Shown here: positions 2,293 through 15,893 of the stretch, in pieces
How the letters are laid out: each line of letters opens with the position of its first letter
Numbering within the stretch: position 1 is the first letter of the stretch
Origin: Acutalibacter sp.
GTDB taxonomy: Bacteria > Bacillota > Clostridia > Oscillospirales > Acutalibacteraceae
Length of the DNA: 17,299 nt
Direction of reading: 5' to 3'
Assembly (NCBI GenBank): GCA_022801475.1
Contig: JAAWSH010000006.1
Coordinates: forward strand, 1 to 17,299
Translations under genes and position numbers: made by a program
The notes under the pieces: generated by a model
Told to the model about the DNA's origin: nothing
The model's database searches: none
The model's input: only the letters and a program-made list of their open reading frames with translations

Positions 2293-3663
2293 ATGTCTCG
2301 TTTTATCCATAAACCCCGCCGCACTACCGCGCCTGTGCGCCTTATTGTAGTCAGTTTTGTGCTGCTCATCGCCCTGGGGGCCCTGCTGCTTAGCTTGCCG
2401 GTCTCCTCGGCCACGGGCAATTTTACCAACCCCGTCTCCGCCCTGTTCACCGCCACCTCTGCCACCTGTGTTACGGGCCTGGCGGTGGAGGACACCACAG
2501 CCCACTGGTCGGTGTTTGGCCAGGTGGTGCTTCTTCTGCTCATCCAGCTGGGGGGCCTGGGGCTTTCCACCTTTGCCACGGGTTTTTCGCTTTTGGTGCA
2601 CCGGCGGCTGGGCATCCGGCAGATGGTGCTTACCGGAGAGGCCTCGGGGGGAGACATGCCCGGGGCGGCCGGGCTTTTGCGGCTGATGCTGGGTTTTACC
2701 TTTACCTGTGAGCTCCTGGGGGCCGGGCTTTTGGCTCTGCGGTTTGTACCCAGCTACGGGGCCCGGGGGGCCTGGGCCGCTGTGTTTGTGGCGGTTTCCG
2801 CCTACTGCAACGCCGGGTTTGACATCTTGGGCTTTGTGCCGGGGAACTCCAGCCTTACAGCCTTTTCAGGCGACCCTCTGGTTTGCCTGACCATCTCGGG
2901 GCTCATCATCACCGGGGGCCTGGGGTTTGTGGTGGTGCGGGATATTTTTCAGTGTAAGCTGCTTTTGCCCCTGCGCCATCAGGGGGCCAAGCAGCTGAAC
3001 TTTCACTCGCAGGTCTGTCTGCGGGCCACCCTAGCCCTGCTGGCTACCGGAACCCTGGGGTTTCTTTTGCTGGAGAGCAACCAGACCCTAAAGGGCATGG
3101 GCTTTGGCCAGCGGCTGAACACCGCCTTTTTTCAGTCTGTAAATACCCGCACCGCAGGGTTTGCCTCTGTAGATATTCAGGCCCAGGGGGGCTTTACCAA
3201 GCTGCTCTCTGTGGCCCTCATGTTTATTGGCGGCTGCCCGGGCTCCACAGCGGGCGGGGTAAAGACCACCACCCTGGTGGTGCTTATCATGACAGTGGCT
3301 TCCACCCTGCGGGGCAGGGACCAGGCTTCGGCTCTTGGCCACCGGTTTACCCCAGGAGTAGTATACAAGTCTCTCACTGTAGTGCTTTTGGGTCTAGGGG
3401 TGGTGTTTGCCGGGACCTGCGCCCTCATTCTGCTAAATCCCCGGCTGGCCCCCATCGACCTGTTGTACGAGGCTGCCTCTGCTTTTGGCACAGCGGGGCT
3501 TAGCGCCAGCGTAACCCCCCAGCTGGGGGTGGCCTCCCGGCTGCTCTTGTGCCTCATAATGTTCATTGGCAGGGTAGGCCCCGTATCCTTTGGGCTATCC
3601 ATCCTTATGCACGCCAAGGCCTCCCCAGCCATCCTCCCCGAAGGCCGCATGCTCATCGGCTAA
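2293..3663 (+). CDS. ktrB: Trk/Ktr potassium uptake channel, membrane subunit (KtrB/TrkH type)
   Basis: Potassium-translocating subunit of the Trk/Ktr/HKT superfamily, 456 residues with four repeated M1-P-M2 units. The four pore signatures are visible: TSATCVTGL (about residues 55-63), YCNAGFDILG, NTRTAGFASV and SAFGTAGLSA, each with the glycine of the selectivity filter. The family's usual C-terminal end (PEGRMLIG) is intact. Length fits KtrB rather than the longer TrkH of Proteobacteria. The start is the ATG at 2293, with GAGGTGAT upstream at a rather long spacing. Such channels need a cytoplasmic RCK subunit (KtrA/TrkA), often the next gene, but here the stop codon is followed directly by the first base of a palindromic repeat module (3664). 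The partner must be elsewhere. Confidence 0.93.
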   Translation: MSRFIHKPRRTTAPVRLIVVSFVLLIALGALLLSLPVSSATGNFTNPVSALFTATSATCVTGLAVEDTTAHWSVFGQVVLLLLIQLGGLGLSTFATGFSLLVHRRLGIRQMVLTGEASGGDMPGAAGLLRLMLGFTFTCELLGAGLLALRFVPSYGARGAWAAVFVAVSAYCNAGFDILGFVPGNSSLTAFSGDPLVCLTISGLIITGGLGFVVVRDIFQCKLLLPLRHQGAKQLNFHSQVCLRATLALLATGTLGFLLLESNQTLKGMGFGQRLNTAFFQSVNTRTAGFASVDIQAQGGFTKLLSVALMFIGGCPGSTAGGVKTTTLVVLIMTVASTLRGRDQASALGHRFTPGVVYKSLTVVLLGLGVVFAGTCALILLNPRLAPIDLLYEAASAFGTAGLSASVTPQLGVASRLLLCLIMFIGRVGPVSFGLSILMHAKASPAILPEGRMLIG

Positions 3664-3938
3664 GCAACGCAAGCGTTGCATCTTTAGTCGCGGGGGCGTT
3701 CGCTCCGGCTCACTTGCCGGTGTTAGCTTCTAGCCGAGCCAGCACGTTTCTCTGGATGCTTCCGGCGGTGTGTGGCCTCTGTCCGCGTTGGCTAAGCTGG
3801 CGGTTTACACTGGCGAGGGCGCACAGGGCCAAAAGAAGGATGCCCGTATTGGCTAAAGAGAAACATAAAGAAGAGACAGGGGCCGTATTTAGCTAAAGCA
3901 AAAAAGGAGCCGGGTAACGCCGGAAGCGCCCAGAAGAA

Positions 3939-4022
3939 CGCGCTGGCTCGGCTAACCGTTACCACCCAGGGAGCGCGTAGCTTTGCGCGCCTCCGCGACT
4001 AACGGTGCAGCGCTTGTGCTGC
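3939..4022 (-). repeat. 84-bp tandem module, distal copy
   Basis: Directly adjoins the next 84-bp unit in the same orientation. Contains a hairpin GCGCG (3973-3977) / CGCGC (3986-3990) around TAGCTTTG, with outer GGAG/CTCC pairing possible, and a slightly decayed palindrome (gcttgtgc) at its right end. Confidence 0.85.
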
Positions 4023-4106
4023 CGCGCTGGCTCGGCTAACCGTTACCGCCCGGGGAGGGCGTGGCTTTGCCCGATTCCGCGACTAACGGTGCAGCGCTTG
4101 CGCTGC
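4023..4106 (-). repeat. 84-bp tandem module, gene-proximal copy
   Basis: Same length and layout as 3939-4022, but the hairpin arms have changed together: GGGC (4057-4060) pairs with GCCC (4069-4072) around the conserved loop core GGCTTT. It holds the last 23 codons and the stop of the methyltransferase gene. Confidence 0.85.
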
Positions 4107-5118
4107 TTAGTAGTACGAATAGGCCGCATTTTTTGCCGGAGACCAACAGGTGGTGCTCCTCCTTTAGTTCCAGCTGTGGGCAGCCTGCCAGGGCTTCGGC
4201 CAGCTCTCTTTTTCCCGCGGTAAGCACCACCACCCGTCCCCCGGGCTTCAGCACCTGGCAAAACGCCCCCAGCATGGCCGCGTAAAAGGCCTCCAGGGGC
4301 TGCGCTGTGTCCTTGTACAGCCCCCAGGGCGGGTCTGTGATAATGGCGTCCACGCTTCCTTGCGGCAGAGAATCCCCCAGGCACAGCGCGTCCCCTTGGG
4401 CAAAAACCAGGCCGGGCCGTTGGCCTAGCTTTTCCTGGGCCAGGGCAAGAGGCACTGGGTCCTGGTCAAAGGCCAACATTTTGGCATAGGGGAAGCGTTT
4501 GCATCGCTGGGCCGGGATGGCCCCATAGCCGCAAAAAGGGTCTAGCACCCAGTCTGTGGGCTGGGGAGCGGAGAGCCAGCACAGCATATAGGCCAACTCT
4601 GGGTGGAGCTCCCCAGGGTGCAGAAGCTTGTCATATGCCCGGTGCCGGGAGAGGCGCTTTAAAAAGTAGCCCCTTCCCTCTCGGCGGGTGAGAACCCAAA
4701 ACTCGCTATCCGGCAGGCTGCGGTCCACCCGCAGGCCCGTGGCTCCGGCCAGGCGCTTTTCCAGGGCGCTCTTGGCGCCAGCGCTTAGGGCGGTCAGCTG
4801 GTTTTGGCAGCTGGTCACCAACCGAAAGCTCCGGCAGCGGGCCGGATGCTCCCCGGCGGCTTTCCAGTCAACGGGCGCGGCAGGCAGCCCCCGGGCAAAC
4901 TTTTCCAGCCCGGCTTTCTCGGCTCTGGCCGGGGCGCTGTACAGCACCTGAAACAGGTTGTTAAAACAAAACAGGTTTAGGCCGCTGTAGGCCAGGGCGG
5001 TCTCAAACTCTACCGCGCCGCTTTGCAGGTCCACCAGCCGCAGGTCCTTTAGCCGCTGGGCCAAAATGCCAGCCACAATATCCTCCGCGCCGGGAATAAA
5101 TGTGCCAAAATACCGCAT
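4036..5118 (-). CDS. THUMP/UPF0020-type RNA methyltransferase, C-terminus supplied by a repeat
   Basis: Predicted S-adenosylmethionine-dependent RNA N-methyltransferase of the UPF0020 type (relatives include RlmL and Trm14/TrmN, which make N2-methylguanosine in rRNA or tRNA). An N-terminal part (about residues 1-160) fits a ferredoxin-like plus THUMP RNA-binding region. The Rossmann domain follows, with motif I DPFCGYGAIP (193-202), an acidic residue ending strand 2 (FDQD, 218-221) and catalytic motif IV DPPW (262-265), typical of amino-methyltransferases. The start ATG (5118) follows AAAGG. Residues about 338-360 and the stop are encoded by the 84-bp repeat module at 4023-4106, so the native end was probably replaced by insertion; all catalytic motifs are kept. 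Divergent from the DtxR-like gene. Exact RNA substrate unknown. Confidence 0.85.
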   Translation of the reverse strand: MRYFGTFIPGAEDIVAGILAQRLKDLRLVDLQSGAVEFETALAYSGLNLFCFNNLFQVLYSAPARAEKAGLEKFARGLPAAPVDWKAAGEHPARCRSFRLVTSCQNQLTALSAGAKSALEKRLAGATGLRVDRSLPDSEFWVLTRREGRGYFLKRLSRHRAYDKLLHPGELHPELAYMLCWLSAPQPTDWVLDPFCGYGAIPAQRCKRFPYAKMLAFDQDPVPLALAQEKLGQRPGLVFAQGDALCLGDSLPQGSVDAIITDPPWGLYKDTAQPLEAFYAAMLGAFCQVLKPGGRVVVLTAGKRELAEALAGCPQLELKEEHHLLVSGKKCGLFVLLSSASAAPLVAESGKATPSPGGNG

Positions 5119-5134
5119 GGCTATCCCTTTCCTC

Positions 5135-5163
5135 TTGAATTTTTTTATTACAAGCGATATAAT
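5135..5163 (+). promoter_or_regulatory. Promoter of the DtxR-family gene
   Basis: -35 TTGAAT (5135-5140), 17-bp spacer, -10 TATAAT (5158-5163). The start of transcription is expected near 5170, leaving about 70 nt of 5' untranslated region. I could not identify a matching minus-strand promoter for the methyltransferase in this 123-bp intergenic region, nor a clear metal-regulator operator. Confidence 0.82.
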
Positions 5164-5241
5164 ATAAACAGAAAAGCCCGGGCGTATCCAGGTATAAAGT
5201 AGGCAATTTAGCCCACAAACATTAAAGGACGTGACAGCGAC

Positions 5242-5643
5242 ATGAAAAAAATACAGGAATCCGCCGAGAACTATCTGGAGACCATCCTTATTTTGCAGCA
5301 GCGAAACGGTGCAGTGCGGTCCATTGACATTGCCGCCGAGCTGGAGTTCAGCAAGCCCAGCGTTAGTGTGGCCATGAAAAACCTGCGGGAAAAAGGATGC
5401 GTCATAGTGGATGGAGACGGGTTCATCACCCTAACCGGGGAGGGGCGGCGTATTGCCGAAGGGGTGTACGAGCGGCATCTGCTATTCACCCGGTGGCTCA
5501 CCTCCCTGGGGGTACCGCCAGAACTGGCTGCCGAGGACGCCTGCCGCATGGAGCACGTGGTCAGCGAAGAGACCTTTCGGGCCATTCAGCGGCACGTAGA
5601 CAACACCCAGGACGCAGCGGCAGCGCAAGCGCTGCACCGTTAG
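5242..5643 (+). CDS. DtxR/MntR-family metal-dependent transcriptional regulator
   Basis: Metal-responsive DNA-binding repressor, 133 residues, in the short form without the SH3-like domain. The winged helix covers about residues 8-70 (IDIAAELEFSKPSVSVAMKN is the helix-turn-helix) and the dimerisation helices follow. Metal-site residues by alignment to DtxR/MntR from memory: Asn10 and Glu13 in ENYLE, His79 in YERH, and Cys101, Glu104, His105 in ACRMEH. Asn10 stands where MntR has Asp8 and DtxR/IdeR has Met10. The Cys-x-x-Glu-His set is DtxR-like. The ATG at 5242 follows AAAGGACGTG. The last five or so codons before the stop (ending LHR) lie in the repeat module that begins at 5620, and the TAG is the module's own CGTTAG. 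No iron or manganese transporter sits beside it, so its targets are elsewhere. Confidence 0.9.
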   Translation: MKKIQESAENYLETILILQQRNGAVRSIDIAAELEFSKPSVSVAMKNLREKGCVIVDGDGFITLTGEGRRIAEGVYERHLLFTRWLTSLGVPPELAAEDACRMEHVVSEETFRAIQRHVDNTQDAAAAQALHR

Positions 5644-5941
5644 TCGCAGAGGTCTCGTCTGCCGACTCGGTCGGGTCAGAACGGTCGCCACTGGCGACCT
5701 TCCCCGCGCAAAGCCGCGCGCTGCCTGGGTGGTAATGGTTAGCATAGCCAACGCGTTCCTCTGGGCGCTTCCGGCGTGACCCGACTCCTCTTTTTTGCTT
5801 TAGCTAATATACGAGCCCCACCCTTTCAGCCCCGCCCGTCCCCTGTCCGCGCTGGCTGGGCTGGCGGTTTACACCGGCAAGTGAGCCGGAGCGAACGCCC
5901 CCGTGACATTGGATGCAACGTCACGTTGCCGCTTGCGTTGC
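5620..5941. repeat. Composite palindromic repeat, copy B, between the DtxR-like gene and glpK
   Basis: A 322-bp relative of the block at 3664-4106, in inverted orientation. On the left a plus-oriented module starts with GCAGCGCAAGCGCTGC (5620-5635) and CGTTAGTCGC, is interrupted by about 50 extra bases holding the hairpin at 5683-5699, and continues through CCTGGGTGGTAATGGTTAGC to CTTCCGGCGTGACCCGACTC and a T6 run (5791-5796). On the right a minus-oriented module from glpK starts with a rearranged GCAACGCAAGCG palindrome (complement of 5930-5941). Both outer palindromes overlap coding sequence: the DtxR-like gene to 5643 and glpK from 5921. Confidence 0.83.
5683..5699. other. Perfect 7-bp hairpin in the copy B insertion
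   Basis: GGTCGCC (5683-5689), loop ACT, GGCGACC (5693-5699). It lies in the stretch present in copy B but absent from both 84-bp modules of copy A. Confidence 0.6.
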
Positions 5942-7411
5942 CCGCACTGCTTTATGCCAGCGGTCCAGGTCCTGCTGGCGGCGGGCGGGATCGTAGTGGG
6001 GAGAAAAGGCGGCGTCCTCCCGCCAAAGGGCCTGCAACTCCTCTTGGCTGTCCCACACGCCTACGGTCAGCCCCGCCATCATAGCCGAGCCCAGGGCGGT
6101 GGTCTCCAGGCACTGGGGACGCAGCACCCGGCTGCCGAGAATGTCCGCCTGGTACTGCATCAAAAACTTGCTTCGAGAGGCTCCGCCGTCTACCCGCAGC
6201 TCCCTTAGGCACACGCCGCTCTCTTCCTCCATAGCTTTTACCAGGTCCCAGCTCTCCAGGGCAATGCTCTCTAGCACGGCCCGGCACAGGTGGGCACGGG
6301 TCGCGCCCCTGGTCACCCCCAGCAGGGCCCCCCGGGCATACATGTCCCAGTAGGGCGCGCCCAGACCTGTAAAGGCGGGTACAAAGCTAAGGCCCCCGGC
6401 GTCTTCTACGGTTTCGGCCAGTTGGTCGGCCTCCTGGGGCGTTTTGATAATTTCCAGCTCGTCCCGCAGCCACTGTATGGCCGAGCCCGCGTTAAAGGCG
6501 CTACCCTCTAGGGCGTAGACGGTTTTGCCCCCCAGCTTCCAGGCAATGGTGGTTAGCAGGTCCTGGGCGGCCACCGGCGTTTCCCCTGTGTTCATGAGAA
6601 CAAAGCAGCCGGTGCCGTAGGTGTTCTTGGCCATACCTTTTTCAAAGCAGCACTGGCCAAACAGGGCCGCGTGCTGGTCGCCCGCCATACCGGCAATGGG
6701 AATCTCTCGCCCCAGCACGTCCGCGCCGCACATTCCCACCACCTGGCCGCACTCCACCACCTGGGGCAGGGCGGTTTCCGGAATGCCCAGCTCTTTGAGC
6801 AGGGTGGGGTCCCAGCACTGGTGGTGGATGTCAAAGAGCATGGTACGGGAGGCGTTGGACACGTCGGTGACAAAAGACCGCCCCTCGGTGAGGGAATAGG
6901 CCAGCCAGCAGTCAATGGTGCCAAAGCGCAGCCGGCCTTTTGCGGCCAGGTCCCGGGCGGCGGGGACGTTGTCCAAAATCCACTTCATTTTGGTGCCGGA
7001 AAAATAGGGGTCAATCAGCAGCCCGGTCACGTCCTTTATGTAGCCGCCCAGCCCAGCCTCACGCAGCTGTTCACACTGGCGGGCGGTGCGGCGGCACTGC
7101 CAGACAATGGCGTTGCATATAGGGATGCCGGTGGCGCTGTCCCAGGCCACAGTGGTCTCCCGCTGGTTTGTAATGCTAATGGCGGCCACGTCGCCGGGGT
7201 TTGTGCCCGCGCTGGCCATGGCCTGGCGCATGGCATAGAGGGTGGTCTGCAAAATTTGCACCGCGTCGTGCTCCACATATCCTGGTTGGGGGTAGATTTG
7301 CCGGAACTCCCGCTGGCCCATGCCAGCCACGCCCCCAAAGGCGTCGAATAAAACAGCCCGAGAGCTGGTGGTGCCCTGGTCGATGGAGAGAATATATTTT
7401 CCCACAGTCAT
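5921..7411 (-). CDS. glpK: Glycerol kinase
   Basis: FGGY-family kinase that phosphorylates glycerol with ATP to sn-glycerol 3-phosphate in the cytoplasm. It has 496 residues, full length for the family. The start is the ATG at 7411 (MTVGKYILSIDQGTT), with AAAGGAG upstream; the frame stays open further 5' but runs through the promoter and the tRNA. Visible signatures: phosphate-binding DQGTTSSR (11-18), TNQRET (81-86), the glycerol-site segment IDPYFSGTK, GDQHAALFGQ (244-253) and the FGGY-type block RAVLESIALES with VDGGASRS. In Enterococcus a histidine in an HFFG motif is phosphorylated by the PTS; the equivalent place here reads DVLG (about 231-234), so that control is probably missing. The last seven codons (ATQAAT and stop) are repeat-derived. 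Neither glpF nor glpD is adjacent. Confidence 0.96.
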   Translation of the reverse strand: MTVGKYILSIDQGTTSSRAVLFDAFGGVAGMGQREFRQIYPQPGYVEHDAVQILQTTLYAMRQAMASAGTNPGDVAAISITNQRETTVAWDSATGIPICNAIVWQCRRTARQCEQLREAGLGGYIKDVTGLLIDPYFSGTKMKWILDNVPAARDLAAKGRLRFGTIDCWLAYSLTEGRSFVTDVSNASRTMLFDIHHQCWDPTLLKELGIPETALPQVVECGQVVGMCGADVLGREIPIAGMAGDQHAALFGQCCFEKGMAKNTYGTGCFVLMNTGETPVAAQDLLTTIAWKLGGKTVYALEGSAFNAGSAIQWLRDELEIIKTPQEADQLAETVEDAGGLSFVPAFTGLGAPYWDMYARGALLGVTRGATRAHLCRAVLESIALESWDLVKAMEEESGVCLRELRVDGGASRSKFLMQYQADILGSRVLRPQCLETTALGSAMMAGLTVGVWDSQEELQALWREDAAFSPHYDPARRQQDLDRWHKAVRATQAAT

Positions 7412-7875: not shown

Positions 7876-9276
7876 ATGGAAATGAAAATTTACTCGGGTT
7901 CCTCTGCTTCTGGAGACCGGTGCGGTTGTGGGGAGCTTCCGCCCTGTCCGCCTCCTTGTTGCCCACCTCCCTGTTGTCCACCGCCATGCCCTCCTTGTGG
8001 AGGTCCCACCGGGCCTACTGGTCCTACGGGTGCTACCGGCCCCACAGGTGCTACTGGGGCCACGGGCGCTACCGGAGCCACAGGCCGTATTGGCCCCACA
8101 GGTCCTACTGGCGCCAATGGAAACACAGGCCCCACGGGAGCCATGGGCCCTACCGGAGCCAATGGTCTGGCTGGTCCAACCGGTCCTAGAGGGGATACCG
8201 GTCCCACCGGAACGCCTGGCGTCAACGGAGCGACCGGACCCACTGGCCCTGCCGGAGCTGTGGGAGCTACAGGCCCCACCGGAGCCACAGGCGCAACGGG
8301 AGCAGACGGTGTGACGGGTCCCACTGGTCCTACAGGCGCGGCAGGAGCCACCGGTGCAGACGGAGCCACAGGTCCTACAGGTGCCACGGGCGCAACGGGA
8401 GCGGACGGCGTGACGGGCCCCACAGGCCCTACAGGCGCGGCAGGAGCCACCGGTGCGGACGGAGCCACAGGCCCCACCGGGGCCACGGGCGCAACGGGAG
8501 CGGACGGCGTGACGGGCCCCACAGGCCCTACAGGCGCGGCAGGAGCCACCGGTGCAGACGGAGCCACAGGTCCCACCGGGGCCACGGGCGCAACGGGAGC
8601 GGACGGCGTGACGGGTCCCACTGGTCCTACAGGCGCGGCGGGAGCCACCGGTGCGGACGGAGCCACAGGTCCCACCGGGGCCACGGGCGCAACGGGAGCA
8701 GACGGCGTGACGGGCCCCACTGGTCCTACAGGCGCGGCAGGAGCCACCGGAGCGGACGGAGCCACAGGTCCCACCGGTGCCACGGGCGCAACGGGAGCCG
8801 CAGGAGCGGACGGAGCAGTTGGTCCCACTGGAGCCACAGGCGCTACAGGCCCCACTGGTCCTACAGGAACTTCCGTTACGGCAACCTCTATGAGCGCTTC
8901 CAATACCACTGGGCAGAGCCTCTTAGTCATACTGGGCGGCACAGATGTGCCCCTGCCAAATGCCCAAAGCCTAGACGGTTTTACCGCCAATGGGACGAAT
9001 ACGGTCTTTACTGTACCAACAACCGGAACCTATTTGATCACCTATCGGATCAATGCCACGGCAGCGGTGGCCATGTCCTCACAGGTGCTTCGCAATGGCA
9101 CGGCGATCCCCGGTTCGGTATTCGCGCCAACTATTGGCGTGACGGGGTATAATGCCACGGTGGTTGCCCCGTTGACGGCGGGGGACACCTTGTCGCTTCA
9201 GGTGTCCGGAGTTGCGGCCACTGTGGTGCTGCAAGGCGGCTCCGGCGCGTCTCTAACCGTGGTGCGGCTGGCCTAA
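7876..9276 (+). CDS. Collagen-like surface protein (BclA-type)
   Basis: 466-residue structural protein, probably at the spore or cell surface. Residues 1-42 form a short N-terminal region rich in Cys and Pro (CPPPCC repeats) that could cross-link or anchor it; there is no classical signal peptide or LPXTG motif. Residues 43-331 are about 96 Gly-X-Y triplets, nearly all [12 protein letters not shown] or GVT, so threonine fills most Y positions; these would fold as a triple helix and offer many O-glycosylation sites. Residues about 332-466 are a beta-rich C-terminal domain ([18 protein letters not shown]...) like the TNF/C1q-fold trimerisation domain of BclA. The ATG at 7876 follows GGAGG at 10 nt. 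A glycosyltransferase gene lies 101 bp downstream. Spore location is inference from homologues. Confidence 0.92.
8305..8799 (+). repeat. Five 99-bp tandem repeats inside the collagen region
   Basis: The GACGG of the GADGV codons recurs at 8305, 8404, 8503, 8602 and 8701, exactly 99 bases apart. Each unit encodes 33 residues (11 triplets) with the order [33 protein letters not shown]. Differences between units are mostly silent third-position changes (GGT/GGC, GCA/GCG, CCC/CCT), except that the fifth unit drifts at its end into GAA. Confidence 0.95.
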
Positions 9277-11804: not shown

Positions 11805-12956
11805 ATGCTGAAAAACTGGCTGTGGTACCTGTTCCTTCTGCTGTGCACAGGGGCGTTTTTTGTGTGCTTTAATGGCTACCTGTCCATGTATGTGTTCCTT
11901 CTCTCCCTGCTTCTGCCCCCGGTTTCTCTGCTGGTTTCTCTGCCTGGTATGTTAAGGCTTCGGCTGGTCCTGGAAATTCCCGGAGAGGCGGGCCGTGCCC
12001 GTATGGCCAAAAGCATGTCTGTTTCGCTGCGCCTGCACGCGGCCACCCGCTGTGTGCTGCCCACGGGACGGGTGCGGGTGACGCTTTTTGTGGAGAACCG
12101 CTTTACCGGCGAGACCCGGCGGGAACGCCTGGAGTTTTCCTCTGGGCGGCAGGCGCTTACCCTGGCCCACTCGCTAAGCTCCAACACCTGCGGGCTGGTG
12201 ACCTGCCAGCTGAAAAGGGCCTGGGCCTATGACTTGCTGGGGCTTTTTTTCCTGCCGGTACGGCTGGGGGAAGAGGCCCAGTGTCAAGCGACCGTGCTGC
12301 CCACCGTGCACGATGCCCAGCTAACCCTGGAGACCGGGGCCGCTCCCCAGGCCGAGGGGGAACGGTATTCCCTTTATAAACCGGGCGGGGACCCTTCGGA
12401 GCTGTTCGGCCTGCGGGAGTACCGCCCCGGCGACCGGCTAAGCCGCATTGACTGGAAGCTCTCTCAAAAATCCCGGGGCCTGCTGGTGCGCCAGGCCAGC
12501 CTGCCCATTACCGACCAGGTGGTGCTGCTTACGGACCTTTCCGGCGGCGGGGCAGAGGCCGACGGGGCCATGGATGTGCTGGCCACTCTGTCGGACTACC
12601 TTGCCTACCAAGAGGTGGGGCATGTGCTGGCCTTTTCCAGCGGAGAGGGCTTGGCCTGCACCCAGGCTCAGACCCCAGAGGAAGCCCGTCCGGCCATTGA
12701 GGCCATGTTGGGTTTGGTTAGCCGGAACCCCTTGCCGGATCTTTCGGTGGCAGCGCTGCCCGAGGGCGTTGCCCACCTGATCTATATTTGTTCCCAGCCG
12801 GACCCGGCCCGGCTGGGTCAGCTGCGGGAGCGGTATCCCCACGCCAGACTCACAGTGCTGCATTTTCTGCGGGCCGAAGGGGGGCTTCAGGGCGCGCAGC
12901 TGGTGCGGGTGCGCCTGGGACATATTGCGGAGGACCTGAACGGCCTGGCGCTGTAG
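11805..12956 (+). CDS. DUF58-domain membrane-anchored protein
   Basis: 383-residue protein of unknown function, family standard in MoxR clusters. Two hydrophobic stretches at the N-terminus (about residues 5-22 and 28-48) form a hairpin anchor; the rest should be cytoplasmic. The DUF58 signature is at about residues 197-230 (DPSELFGLREYRPGDRLSRI, then DWK and a LLVRQ end). A VWA-like segment follows, where DQVVLLTDLSGG resembles a degenerate metal-binding start (DLSGG rather than DxSxS). The ATG at 11805 follows GGGAGAGGGGG. The hairpin at 11724 separates it from moxR. The gap to the next gene is 61 nt without a terminator, so those two are surely cotranscribed. Confidence 0.9.
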   Translation: MLKNWLWYLFLLLCTGAFFVCFNGYLSMYVFLLSLLLPPVSLLVSLPGMLRLRLVLEIPGEAGRARMAKSMSVSLRLHAATRCVLPTGRVRVTLFVENRFTGETRRERLEFSSGRQALTLAHSLSSNTCGLVTCQLKRAWAYDLLGLFFLPVRLGEEAQCQATVLPTVHDAQLTLETGAAPQAEGERYSLYKPGGDPSELFGLREYRPGDRLSRIDWKLSQKSRGLLVRQASLPITDQVVLLTDLSGGGAEADGAMDVLATLSDYLAYQEVGHVLAFSSGEGLACTQAQTPEEARPAIEAMLGLVSRNPLPDLSVAALPEGVAHLIYICSQPDPARLGQLRERYPHARLTVLHFLRAEGGLQGAQLVRVRLGHIAEDLNGLAL

Positions 12957-13017
12957 CGCCTTAAGGCCCCAAGAAACGCCCCCTGCCCCCATCTTTCCGC
13001 CAGAAAGGAGCTCTTCC

Positions 13018-15708
13018 ATGGACCATCCTCAAAACATCCTTTTGGACCGCCCGAAGCTTCTGCTGCCCAGCAGGCCCCAGATAGGGCGGCTGGCCTACTA
13101 CTGTGTGGTGCTGCTTCTGGGCGGCTTTACCCCGTGGATCTGTTTTCTCACTGCCTTTCAGATTCAGGTGCATGGGTTCTCCCTGGCAGTGGCCGGGCTG
13201 GCAGGCTGTGGGTTTTCCATCTGGCGCAGGGCAGATTCCCGCAAGCGCTGGTGGTCCGCTACTCTGCTGGGCTGGGGGCTGTGGCTGCTGGCCGGACTGC
13301 TCCTGTTCGACCGCCTGGCCCACGGGGGTGTGCGGGTGCTGAACATCATGCTTAGCGCCTATGGCGCCAAGCTCAACTACCAGCTGCCTGCCCTAGCCCT
13401 TAGCTATACCGCTGCCGGGGCCCACCCTGACCCCGCAGCAGAGTGCACGGCCCTGATGAACCAAATTCTCTTTCCCTTCTTTTGGATCATGGGCCGGGGA
13501 ATCTACAAATACAAAAGCCCCCTTAGCGCCTTTTTGCTCTCTGCGGTGGTGCTGGTTCTGCCCATGGGCTTTTCCATTTTGCCGGCGGGCTGGGCACTGG
13601 GGGCGCTGCTGCTTTTCTGGTGCCTTTTGCTGTTGACAGGGCGCGTGCTGCGGGGGCGGCAGGGACTGTTTGGCCGGGGACGCAAAGACCGTTGCGCTGT
13701 GCCCGGCGAGGCCTGCGCGGGGCCCGGGGCCTTGCTGCTGGTACCCATTTTGGCAGTGTGCATGGTGGGGCTGTATTTAGCCTACCCCCCAGAAGGCTAC
13801 AGCCGCCCTGCCCTGGTGAACGAAATGCGTTCTGGCGTTGAGCACGGCTTTGGGCTTTCGGCCCACCTGCGGGGGGGCCAGGGCAATGGGAACAGCCAGG
13901 TGAACCTAAACACCATGGGGGGCCGCAGCTACACAAGCGAAACCGTGCTGCGGGTGAAGTTTGACTGGGAGGCAGAGGACCGTGTGCTTTCAGAGGGGAA
14001 AAAAGAGGTGGAAGCCCTTCTGGACCAATGGGGCGTGCCCCACAAGGAGTATCTGAAGAGCTTTGTGGGCAGCGTGTACACAGGACACAGCTGGGAGAGC
14101 TTGGACCCAGAGGCCCAGCGGGAACTAAAGGACCTGGGGCTGAATGTGCAGACCCTGCCCGCTGGCTACAAACGGCTGCTGAACCTGGCGGAATTCGGCG
14201 TGGACCTTCCCCTAAGCTTCCAGCTTTCAGTGGAAAACGTGGGCGCCAACCCCCGCTGCGTGTACATCCCCTACACGCTGGATACCCCCGACGCCCGGCT
14301 GGGGCAGTTGGGCATTCAGCGGGTGGACGATGGTTTTGCCAAGTCGGGTTCTCTGCTGGCCGGCACCCGAGAGTACCAGGTGGAGGGCTTTCCCAGTTTG
14401 GGGGGCGTCGGCTATTATACCCGGGTGGTGGAAAAGCTCTCCTCTATGAACTTGAACAGTAGCCAGACGGTCCAGGTGGTTGTCCCAGATGGGGAAGGGA
14501 ACCTGGTGCGCAATTCTATAAGCAACTATGACTTGGTGTATGAGCTGGAGAGCAGCTTTAACGCCCAGCTGGACGCCGGGGGCCCCCAGTGGGATGAGGA
14601 TCAGTGGAAGTTGGAAGAGGACCTCTCCGGCGTACTGGGGGATGAAGCCGCCGCCCTGCTGGGTCAGGTAGAGGACTACACGGAATTTGTCTATCAGCAC
14701 TATGCCCAGCTGCCGGAGGAGCTGAGCCAATACTTGACCGGCTACCGGGAGGCCATGGGCCTGGAGGGCGTCCATACTTTCGATGATGGCTATACGGCCC
14801 GCGTCCCGGTGGACCAGTTGATCACCCAGATCCAGGACCTTTTCAGCCAATACTATACCTACTCCCTCAACCCGCCCCAGCCCCCGGAGGGAGAGGACTT
14901 TGTCCGCTTCTTTTTGGAAGATTCCCGCCAGGGCTACTGCGTGCACTTTGCCACAGCGGCTGTGGCGCTGCTGCGGTCTGCCGGGTACCCGGCCCGCTAC
15001 GCCGAGGGGTATGTGGCGCCCTCTACCCAAGAGGGCTGGGTGGAGGTGCCAGACTATAACGCCCACGCCTGGGTAGAGGTGTATGCCGGAGGCAGGGGCT
15101 GGGTGCCAGTGGAGGTGACCCCAGCCTCGCCAGACGCCCCGGCGGTATATGCCGACGCCACCGTGCCGGAAGAGGACAGCGCCGGAGCCCTGGCCACCCC
15201 CCGGCCCATTGAGGCAGTACCCACCCTGCCGCCCCAGGACGTTGAGCCCCAGCGTCCCCAGGACTGGGAGCCCAGCTTCCAGCCCAACACAGTGGCCACC
15301 CCCCGGCCCACCCAGAACCCCGGGGCGGCGTCCTCCACAGAAGGGGCTGTGACCATAGCTTTGGCCGGGATTTTACTGGTTTTGCTGATAGTGGGCGCGC
15401 TGGGGGGCAGGGTGCTGCGGCGGCGCCTGCGGAACCGAGCTTTTGCCCAGCCGGACCGGGACCAGGCAGCGCTGCGGGCCTATGCCTGGCTGCAAAAACT
15501 CTACCGCTGGGAGGCGCTTTGCGGCCAGCGGGAGCCCGAGCCCGCCTTTTGGAAGGAACTGGCGGAAAAGGCCCGGTTTGGCCGGGAGATGCTGGGGGAA
15601 AAGGAACTGGCCCAGCTGACGGAAGAGGTGGCCCGGCTGGAGGGCAGGCTGCGGCGGCAGCTGCCCAAAGGGCAAAAGCTGCGCTGCTGGCTGGCCGGTC
15701 TGCTGTAA
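13018..15708 (+). CDS. Transglutaminase-like membrane protein (TgpA type)
   Basis: 896-residue membrane protein, third gene of the MoxR-DUF58 set. About six hydrophobic helices lie in residues 20-260. A large outer domain follows (about 260-775). Within it the transglutaminase/papain-like core has Cys641 in GYCVHFA and His683 in NAHAW. The third position, in VEVTP, is Glu699, where many family members have Asp. A Pro/Thr-rich stretch follows, then one more transmembrane helix (about 778-800) and a basic, helical cytoplasmic tail of about 90 residues. The ATG at 13018 follows AAAGGAG. The reaction is unknown; relatives are proposed to act as proteases or cross-linking enzymes at the envelope. 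No terminator is obvious before the tRNA promoter at 15743. Confidence 0.9.
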   Translation: MDHPQNILLDRPKLLLPSRPQIGRLAYYCVVLLLGGFTPWICFLTAFQIQVHGFSLAVAGLAGCGFSIWRRADSRKRWWSATLLGWGLWLLAGLLLFDRLAHGGVRVLNIMLSAYGAKLNYQLPALALSYTAAGAHPDPAAECTALMNQILFPFFWIMGRGIYKYKSPLSAFLLSAVVLVLPMGFSILPAGWALGALLLFWCLLLLTGRVLRGRQGLFGRGRKDRCAVPGEACAGPGALLLVPILAVCMVGLYLAYPPEGYSRPALVNEMRSGVEHGFGLSAHLRGGQGNGNSQVNLNTMGGRSYTSETVLRVKFDWEAEDRVLSEGKKEVEALLDQWGVPHKEYLKSFVGSVYTGHSWESLDPEAQRELKDLGLNVQTLPAGYKRLLNLAEFGVDLPLSFQLSVENVGANPRCVYIPYTLDTPDARLGQLGIQRVDDGFAKSGSLLAGTREYQVEGFPSLGGVGYYTRVVEKLSSMNLNSSQTVQVVVPDGEGNLVRNSISNYDLVYELESSFNAQLDAGGPQWDEDQWKLEEDLSGVLGDEAAALLGQVEDYTEFVYQHYAQLPEELSQYLTGYREAMGLEGVHTFDDGYTARVPVDQLITQIQDLFSQYYTYSLNPPQPPEGEDFVRFFLEDSRQGYCVHFATAAVALLRSAGYPARYAEGYVAPSTQEGWVEVPDYNAHAWVEVYAGGRGWVPVEVTPASPDAPAVYADATVPEEDSAGALATPRPIEAVPTLPPQDVEPQRPQDWEPSFQPNTVATPRPTQNPGAASSTEGAVTIALAGILLVLLIVGALGGRVLRRRLRNRAFAQPDRDQAALRAYAWLQKLYRWEALCGQREPEPAFWKELAEKARFGREMLGEKELAQLTEEVARLEGRLRRQLPKGQKLRCWLAGLL

Positions 15709-15806: not shown

Positions 15807-15893
15807 GCAGGTATGGCGGAATTGGCAGACGCGTATGGTTCAGGTCCATATGAGCGCAAGTTCATGCAGGTTCAAGTCCTGTTACCTGCACCA
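15807..15893 (+). tRNA. tRNA-Leu (anticodon CAG)
   Basis: Acceptor GCAGGTA pairs with TACCTGC. The D arm holds GGCAGAC. The anticodon stem TATGG/CCATA surrounds TTCAGGT (anticodon CAG). A long class II variable arm and a T arm around GTTCAAGTC are followed by discriminator A and an encoded CCA (15891-15893). Confidence 0.96.

Follow-up and report, generated by a model that had tools for sequence, protein, structure and literature searches.

The DNA analysed here is a stretch of 17,299 nucleotides from an Acutalibacter sp. (contig JAAWSH010000006.1; the whole stretch is termed the window below), in which a family of palindrome-headed repeats lies against the 3′ ends of four genes. The genes are arranged as two convergent pairs. 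A ktrB-like gene of the TrkH family (2293..3663, + strand; PF02386, E 1.6e-48) faces an RNA methyltransferase-like gene (UPF0020; 4036..5118, − strand; PF01170, E 4.9e-22), and the gene for a metal-dependent regulator of the DtxR family (dtxR; 5242..5643, + strand; PF02742, PF01325) faces a glpK-like FGGY kinase gene (5921..7399, − strand; PF00370, PF02782) with a putative start, its open reading frame (ORF) being open to 7717. The nearest named relatives of the DtxR and the methyltransferase are Acutalibacter proteins. Array 1 of the repeats (3664..4106) occupies the gap between ktrB and the methyltransferase gene, and array 2 (5620..5941) that between dtxR and glpK; as called, the window has no other gap between convergent protein genes. 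A first-pass annotation of the sequence had already placed repeats at both positions, and they are indeed present; a search of the 1.78-Mb host draft genome for the exact palindrome pattern gives 15 hits, and one for a reversed control gives none. The annotation also took the convergent gaps to be made of such modules, which holds for these two gaps, but a third, between the end of a + strand gene at 1019 and a − strand tRNA-Leu gene (1288-1370), contains no repeat unit.

The repeat is a compound unit of ~80 nt. Its plan was derived from an alignment of 30 full units from two species, that of the window (host draft genome G000, 64% complete) and a sister species of the same genus (G005, 99% complete). 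A palindrome of 15-16 nt is followed by a line, a second hairpin and a tail, GAGCCAGC. The principal palindromes are CCAGCGCAAGCGCTGG (36 copies), GCAGCGCAAGCGCTGC (24), GCAACGTGACGTTGC (18), GCAACGCAAGCGTTGC (16) and GCAGCGTGACGCTGC (13), from a tally of 122 in which one palindrome is counted on both strands. The line reads AYC and then NTTAGTCGCGG or a variant, the feet seen including NAATGTCGCGG and TTCTTCGCGG; while individual units with GTAG or CGTC exist, neither was found as a constant tag at the end of the palindrome, where the foot is mostly AYC plus one of these three sequences. The second hairpin is of two main types, GTTCGCTCCGGCTCACTTGCC or GGGCAAAGCTGCGCCC, and leads through a stretch like GGTAAC..TTAGCC into the tail. 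No single consensus for this hairpin was found across the unit types, and by eye variants such as GGGC..GCCC and GCGC..GCGC look compensated.

The stem of the palindrome comprises seven pairs, of which three vary on both sides, and 98.6% of the 210 cells in the 30-unit alignment are paired. The covariation score, the number of paired cells and the number of cells changed on both sides are each higher than in all 500 shuffles, and the first two also exceed every slid control. Complementarity continues as far as the innermost pair, and one or two bases remain at the centre. The Rfam covariance models gave no match to either array up to E 1 (window 3600-6000), and at gathering scores they detect tRNAs alone, both in the window and in 20 loci.

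A covariance model was built from the 30 units and used to search 64 sources (938,141 bases) at E<=0.01. Array 1 has one unit entering from the left and two tandem units entering from the right, with a middle connector that holds inverted copies of the tail and hairpin. The ktrB-end unit (3664-3743, + strand, E 1e-22) begins with its palindrome (3664-3679) immediately after the TAA stop codon at 3661-3663. The methyltransferase-end unit (4026-4106, − strand, E 2.3e-21; palindrome 4091-4106) is repeated behind itself with a period of 84 bp and 90% identity (3942-4022, − strand, E 5e-20), so that the module reported at this gene end is there but is one of two. Array 2 begins with a partial unit of palindrome and line at the dtxR end (5620-5652, + strand, E 7e-6), followed by a weak second unit (5685-5752, + strand, E 2.4e-4), and is entered from the other side by the glpK-end unit (5851-5929, − strand, E 7e-17), with palindrome GCAACGTGACGTTGC at 5915-5929 and a truncated outer palindrome at 5930-5941. 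At glpK neither of the motifs given for the common plan of the four gene ends is intact, and the line reads ATCCAATGTCAC in place of TTAGTCGC. The model found nothing else in the window at this threshold, and the annotation had likewise seen no module at any other gene 3′ end. When inverted, array 2 resembles array 1 over stretches of 90 nt (88%) and 73 nt (84%). Folded as RNA, array 1 forms a single long imperfect hairpin (-234.4 kcal/mol, z -7.35), with a weaker fold for array 2 (z -3.91).

Several genes owe their last codons and their stop to the arrays, which extend up to the stop codon. This is so for three genes of the window; ktrB alone stops directly before its unit. The methyltransferase ORF ends in a tail of ~22 residues that, with its stop, is encoded by the repeat (4036..4110, − strand). 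A similar tail is found in the sister G005, and no repeat-coded tail in the 13 other same-genus homologues displayed, at whose loci the model has no match at E<=0.01. The C-terminal tail and stop of the DtxR-like protein are likewise repeat-encoded (5614..5643, + strand, the first codons being approximate), and its TAG stop is supplied by the TTAG of the unit. The DtxR of the window has 133 amino acids (aa) and a relative with the ending of the sister has 131, both with repeat-coded ends, while five relatives lacking an array have 121-124 aa; a sixth, of 130 aa, has an unrelated tail. The last codons and TGA stop of glpK are also encoded by the repeat (5921..5941, − strand).

The 120 nt following the stop were crudely scanned for a hairpin plus U-tract. 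None was detected at 30 array-abutting ends, compared with 34/116 convergent and 36/258 tandem control ends; the 30 ends represent ~18 distinct loci, and one of the ends is that of a doubtful 50-aa ORF while another abuts an A+T-rich repeat instead of a unit. The array limits behind these ends come from blastn with query pieces that contain some of the A+T-rich repeat. Five of the 30 have a weak terminator candidate farther downstream.

The expectation that many more copies exist was borne out, but in a narrow range of hosts. The model has 133 matches in 64 stretches from the host draft and the sister species. By blastn there are 77 pieces on 15 contigs in G000 and 110 in G005, and two more diverged single units were found by the model on G000 contigs C8 and C64 (L157, L169). 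The 744-kb contig of G005, taken whole, has 27 matches in 7 gaps (one by a weak match) among 633 called genes. Just two of the 29 same-genus genomes, that of the window included, carry the family. One diverged piece each is present in G027 and G026 (model E 1.4e-11 and 8.6e-7), the latter having a different palindrome on the same plan directly behind the stop of a 393-codon open frame, and one locus in G020 matches weakly (E 0.0023). A strict pattern is present in 2 of 60 relatives, G000 included. A pattern for the second hairpin is met in 7 of the 29 genus genomes, with three hits for the reversed control and some matches in apparently coding or unrelated sequence. The family-wide DNA search of 398 genomes returned only the window's own, a weak negative as at most two candidates were scored per genome and G005 went unreported. 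No match was found in phage, plasmid and viral collections, the viral scan being that of one strict 27-letter pattern, and no paper on repeats of this type in the genus was among those listed by searches of the open-licence literature (10 of 3,481 in one search). A different repetitive stretch, rich in G+C, begins directly behind the TAA of a 482-codon frame in G004 (L158, near 1450-1700) and may be a parallel example of repeats at gene ends within the genus.

The 133 matches were grouped into 37 arrays, including single-unit arrays, arrays with edges cut by contig ends and the weak L116 (E 0.009). The leftmost unit points right in 31 of the 37 and the rightmost points left in 35, so that 66 of the 74 edges have an inward-facing outermost unit; in a test for terminal inverted repeats the ends were not fixed. 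Because the outermost units point inward, it is palindromes that make up the outer edges, and most arrays are fold-back structures, of up to ~1.35 kb. The units had been described as oriented away from the gene. This is correct at the array edges, but inward-facing units also lie beside gene 5′ ends, and the orientation is therefore a property of the edge. Within the arrays, 50 of the 122 palindromes directly follow one of four recurring places in the unit (the tail in 18 cases, the line in 12, the connector in 11 and the mid-hairpin in 9), 42 lie at edges or in short context and 30 elsewhere. It looks as if pieces of various lengths, each starting at a palindrome, had been duplicated.

A second palindromic repeat, A+T-rich and of ~118 bp with core CTACCTATAGTTATAACAATATACA, lies beside or inside some arrays (L046:2562-2679, L050:2765-2882, L044:3691-3790 and L089 near 12940-13028). 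By eye it resembles a miniature inverted-repeat transposable element (MITE), and it was not seen in the window. In G005 a primase gene of phage or plasmid type (L089:13034-14458; D5_N, DUF5906) ends against an A+T-rich repeat beside one of the largest arrays of that genome.

The copies favour gene 3′ ends, as anticipated. The first unit lies within 20 nt of the gene, or overlaps it, at 29 of 37 3′ flanks compared with 2 of 31 5′ flanks (Fisher p 9e-10), and 15 of the 17 arrays in tandem gaps are closer to the 3′ end (p 0.002). The copies are not, as had been proposed, mostly convergent: arrays with both flanks known lie in 17 tandem, 9 convergent and 5 divergent gaps, or 12, 6 and 4 when collapsed by hand to 22 distinct gaps. 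Against 486 tandem, 73 convergent and 73 divergent gaps on the background contig the convergent share is raised (p 0.009 raw, 0.04 for distinct gaps), but it is not significantly above expectation from intergenic length (p 0.30). A preference for convergent ends as the main rule was rejected. Genes were called with a hexamer-scored ORF caller for protein genes, leaving out tRNA genes, for which reason the gap type of the L051/L080 site differs between the two species (convergent and tandem). The flanking genes are varied and ordinary; Pfam was run on 30 of the 32 distinct ones, and 28 have matches, none to a transposase or recombinase, with one gene similar to a phage/plasmid primase (D5_N). 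An insertion target CTAR behind the stop codon was considered and rejected; CTAG or CTAA does precede the palindrome at several junctions, but others differ.

Sixteen array sites were defined in G000 by blastn. At 13 of them the orthologous gap of G005 also contains an array, at two it contains none (L046; L047 2309-2618), and L050 was assigned to neither set. The prediction of empty sites in a sister strain is thus borne out to the extent that two sites have no array there, but G005 holds other, shorter sequence at both; they are replacements, not clean insertions. Opposite a divergent-gap array of G000, G005 has a G+C-rich sequence of ~107 bp (L079:6369-6477) with no unit and no Rfam match up to E 1. 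At the shared site L088/L056 G005 has one extra ~32-bp copy of palindrome plus line.

The two arrays of the window mark the ends of an inversion. The methyltransferase-dtxR segment (4107..5619) is inverted in G005 with both breakpoints at arrays 1 and 2, so that in G005 ktrB faces dtxR and glpK faces the methyltransferase gene. As judged by eye, the type of the proximal unit is kept across the inversion at the ktrB, methyltransferase and glpK ends and not at that of dtxR. Unit numbers differ, the ktrB side having one unit in G000 and three in G005, and the methyltransferase side two and eight. Neither ktrB nor glpK was found beside the methyltransferase-dtxR pair in the outgroup loci looked at. 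Both genomes are drafts and each array repeats the other in inverse orientation, so an assembly error in one of the genomes might create the same picture; however, no stretch longer than 33 nt (G000) or 23 nt (G005) is exactly shared by the arrays when one of them is inverted. Such lengths are short relative to usual reads, and a mis-join is for this reason improbable. Elsewhere, window 1287-7473 matches G005 contig C16, while 15719-17299 matches contig C2 (L086); the switch, near a tRNA-Leu gene (15807-15893), is either a rearrangement or an assembly join. The window also contains a collagen-like ORF (7876-9276) with long Gly-X-Y repeats, and this repetitive DNA is open in a frame of the other strand too.

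The origin of the repeats is likely to be mobile. We think it probable, by a modest margin over doubt, that they are a lineage-specific, non-autonomous, palindrome-headed family of the sort of the repetitive extragenic palindromic (REP), BOX and MITE elements, grown in place, tolerated behind stop codons and serving as a substrate for rearrangement. The repeats would have established themselves in non-coding DNA, chiefly in the sequence immediately following stop codons, and the recurring pieces suggest that the arrays then grew by duplication of segments that each begin at a palindrome, perhaps by slippage at the hairpin or by unequal recombination. Two inward-facing arms make most arrays into fold-back structures, whose RNA hairpins may form transcript ends. 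The inverted gene order could have arisen by recombination between arrays; a divergent gene pair can flip without harm because each gene end still meets an array. A selfish or neutral, tolerated repeat is favoured by the narrow range, the modular growth in place and the copies in divergent gaps. Several observations weigh on the other side. In a genome-wide search confined to the Y1 transposase family (PF01797), a possible mobiliser, no match was found in G000 (64% complete) or G005; the control was positive in 5 of 14 genomes. The sharing of 13 of 16 sites means that present mobility is low, and neither a target-site duplication nor a clean empty site was found, the G005 counterparts of the two unshared sites having no unit at E<=1. 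The position counts for the 37 arrays include orthologous arrays twice, and the 3′ bias may stem partly from the need to keep promoters and ribosome sites at 5′ ends free. In the palindrome stem, two of the five measures, the counts of pairs changed on both sides and of further pair types, are not above shuffles, and the preserved stems could instead reflect a selected function in RNA or DNA.

Such a function would be expected if the arrays were domesticated 3′-end devices, selectively kept as RNase-blocking hairpin ends of transcripts that replace intrinsic terminators, perhaps together with Rho or colliding polymerases. The lack of U-tract hairpins in the 120 nt scanned, in comparison with the controls, the tight abutment to stop codons, the retention of 13 of 16 sites between species and of the proximal unit type at three of four gene ends across the inversion (by eye), and the high pairing of the stem are all in keeping with this. 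Yet 5 of the 31 arrays with two known flanks lie in divergent gaps, where they serve no gene end, units occupy only 7 gaps on the 744-kb contig with its 633 genes, and the methyltransferase homologues of 13 same-genus genomes manage without an array; the terminator scan is moreover crude, with its ~18 loci and its weak candidates farther on. Selection for a 3′-end function is not needed to explain the pattern, and we consider it unlikely. The arrays might also organise the chromosome, their near-perfect dyads acting as binding sites for gyrase or a nucleoid protein at gene ends, where supercoils accumulate. Pairing to the innermost pair around a centre of 1-2 bases resembles a double-strand dyad more than an RNA loop, but there are just 37 arrays with orthologues entered twice, and the other 27 genomes of the genus show two pieces only; we know of no protein that binds the palindrome, and regard this role as very improbable indeed. 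That the units are true REP elements, in which a REP-associated tyrosine transposase (RAYT), encoded now or formerly in the genome, mobilises single palindromes, also seems improbable. The 3′-end placement of published REPs and their GTAG-supplied TAG stops match what is seen here (PMC3733652), but the unit is ~80 nt with two hairpins, GTAG or CGTC is not constant, and no Y1 match was found in either genome, one of them 99% complete. Somewhat bolder, and in our opinion doubtful, is the proposal that the arrays are exchangeable, lineage-specific gene-end cassettes that displaced terminators, provide the stop, tail and transcript end, and, most of them being fold-back repeats, permit reversible flips of divergent gene pairs between convergent partners.

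The tolerated-repeat interpretation may be set beside known systems, compared here by published description. According to PMC3733652, REP families lie mainly between unidirectional or convergent ORFs and near 3′ ends (<20 bp if convergent), and GTAG REPs often provide a TAG stop. The GTAG and CGTC REPs described there resemble the present family in the palindromic head, the varied stems, the intergenic and 3′-end-proximal location and the ability to give a stop codon or residues; some of those families are clustered, and the CGTC type is likewise reported there to lack a dedicated transposase. The family here differs in its ~80-nt compound unit with second hairpin and tail, its fold-back arrays and the lack of a constant tag, and, unlike GTAG REPs, it has no Y1 transposase detected in either carrier genome. 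The nearest modular analogue is BOX of Streptococcus pneumoniae, which according to PMC3049150 is modular with a variable number of modules, confined to a species group, forms stem-loops and inserts slowly at present, and is judged parasitic by its authors. Compared by plan and not by alignment, the boxA-boxB-boxC layout was not seen here; what recurs as a module is the palindrome-headed unit itself, with arms inward. The MITE-like RU-1/2/3 elements of enterobacteria (PMC2759123) are similar in size (~80-170 nt), are thought to be mobile and can add residues to proteins by read-through, whereas the present units lie in arrays, and a constant terminal inverted repeat accompanied by target duplication was not detected. 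Palindromic elements of Rickettsia, which PMC3733652 mentions, are also incorporated into proteins; by description, the repeats here differ in lying at C-terminal ends and between genes and not within ORFs. In Escherichia coli a REP lying no more than 15 nt from a stop codon is reported to reduce translation (PMC12306157), and by analogy an effect on the upstream gene is plausible here. That repeats cause rearrangements was already known (PMC10888264).

The arrays represent a fast-changing REP/BOX-like family in a gut clostridial lineage, young enough for two sister species to be compared array by array, and a case in which repeats set the ends of proteins and mark both ends of an inversion. 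Were the doubtful cassette proposal correct, the chromosome could be shuffled at gene ends without breaking genes. More generally, repeats of this sort may accumulate after stop codons through tolerance or for a function, and the present family makes that question tractable.

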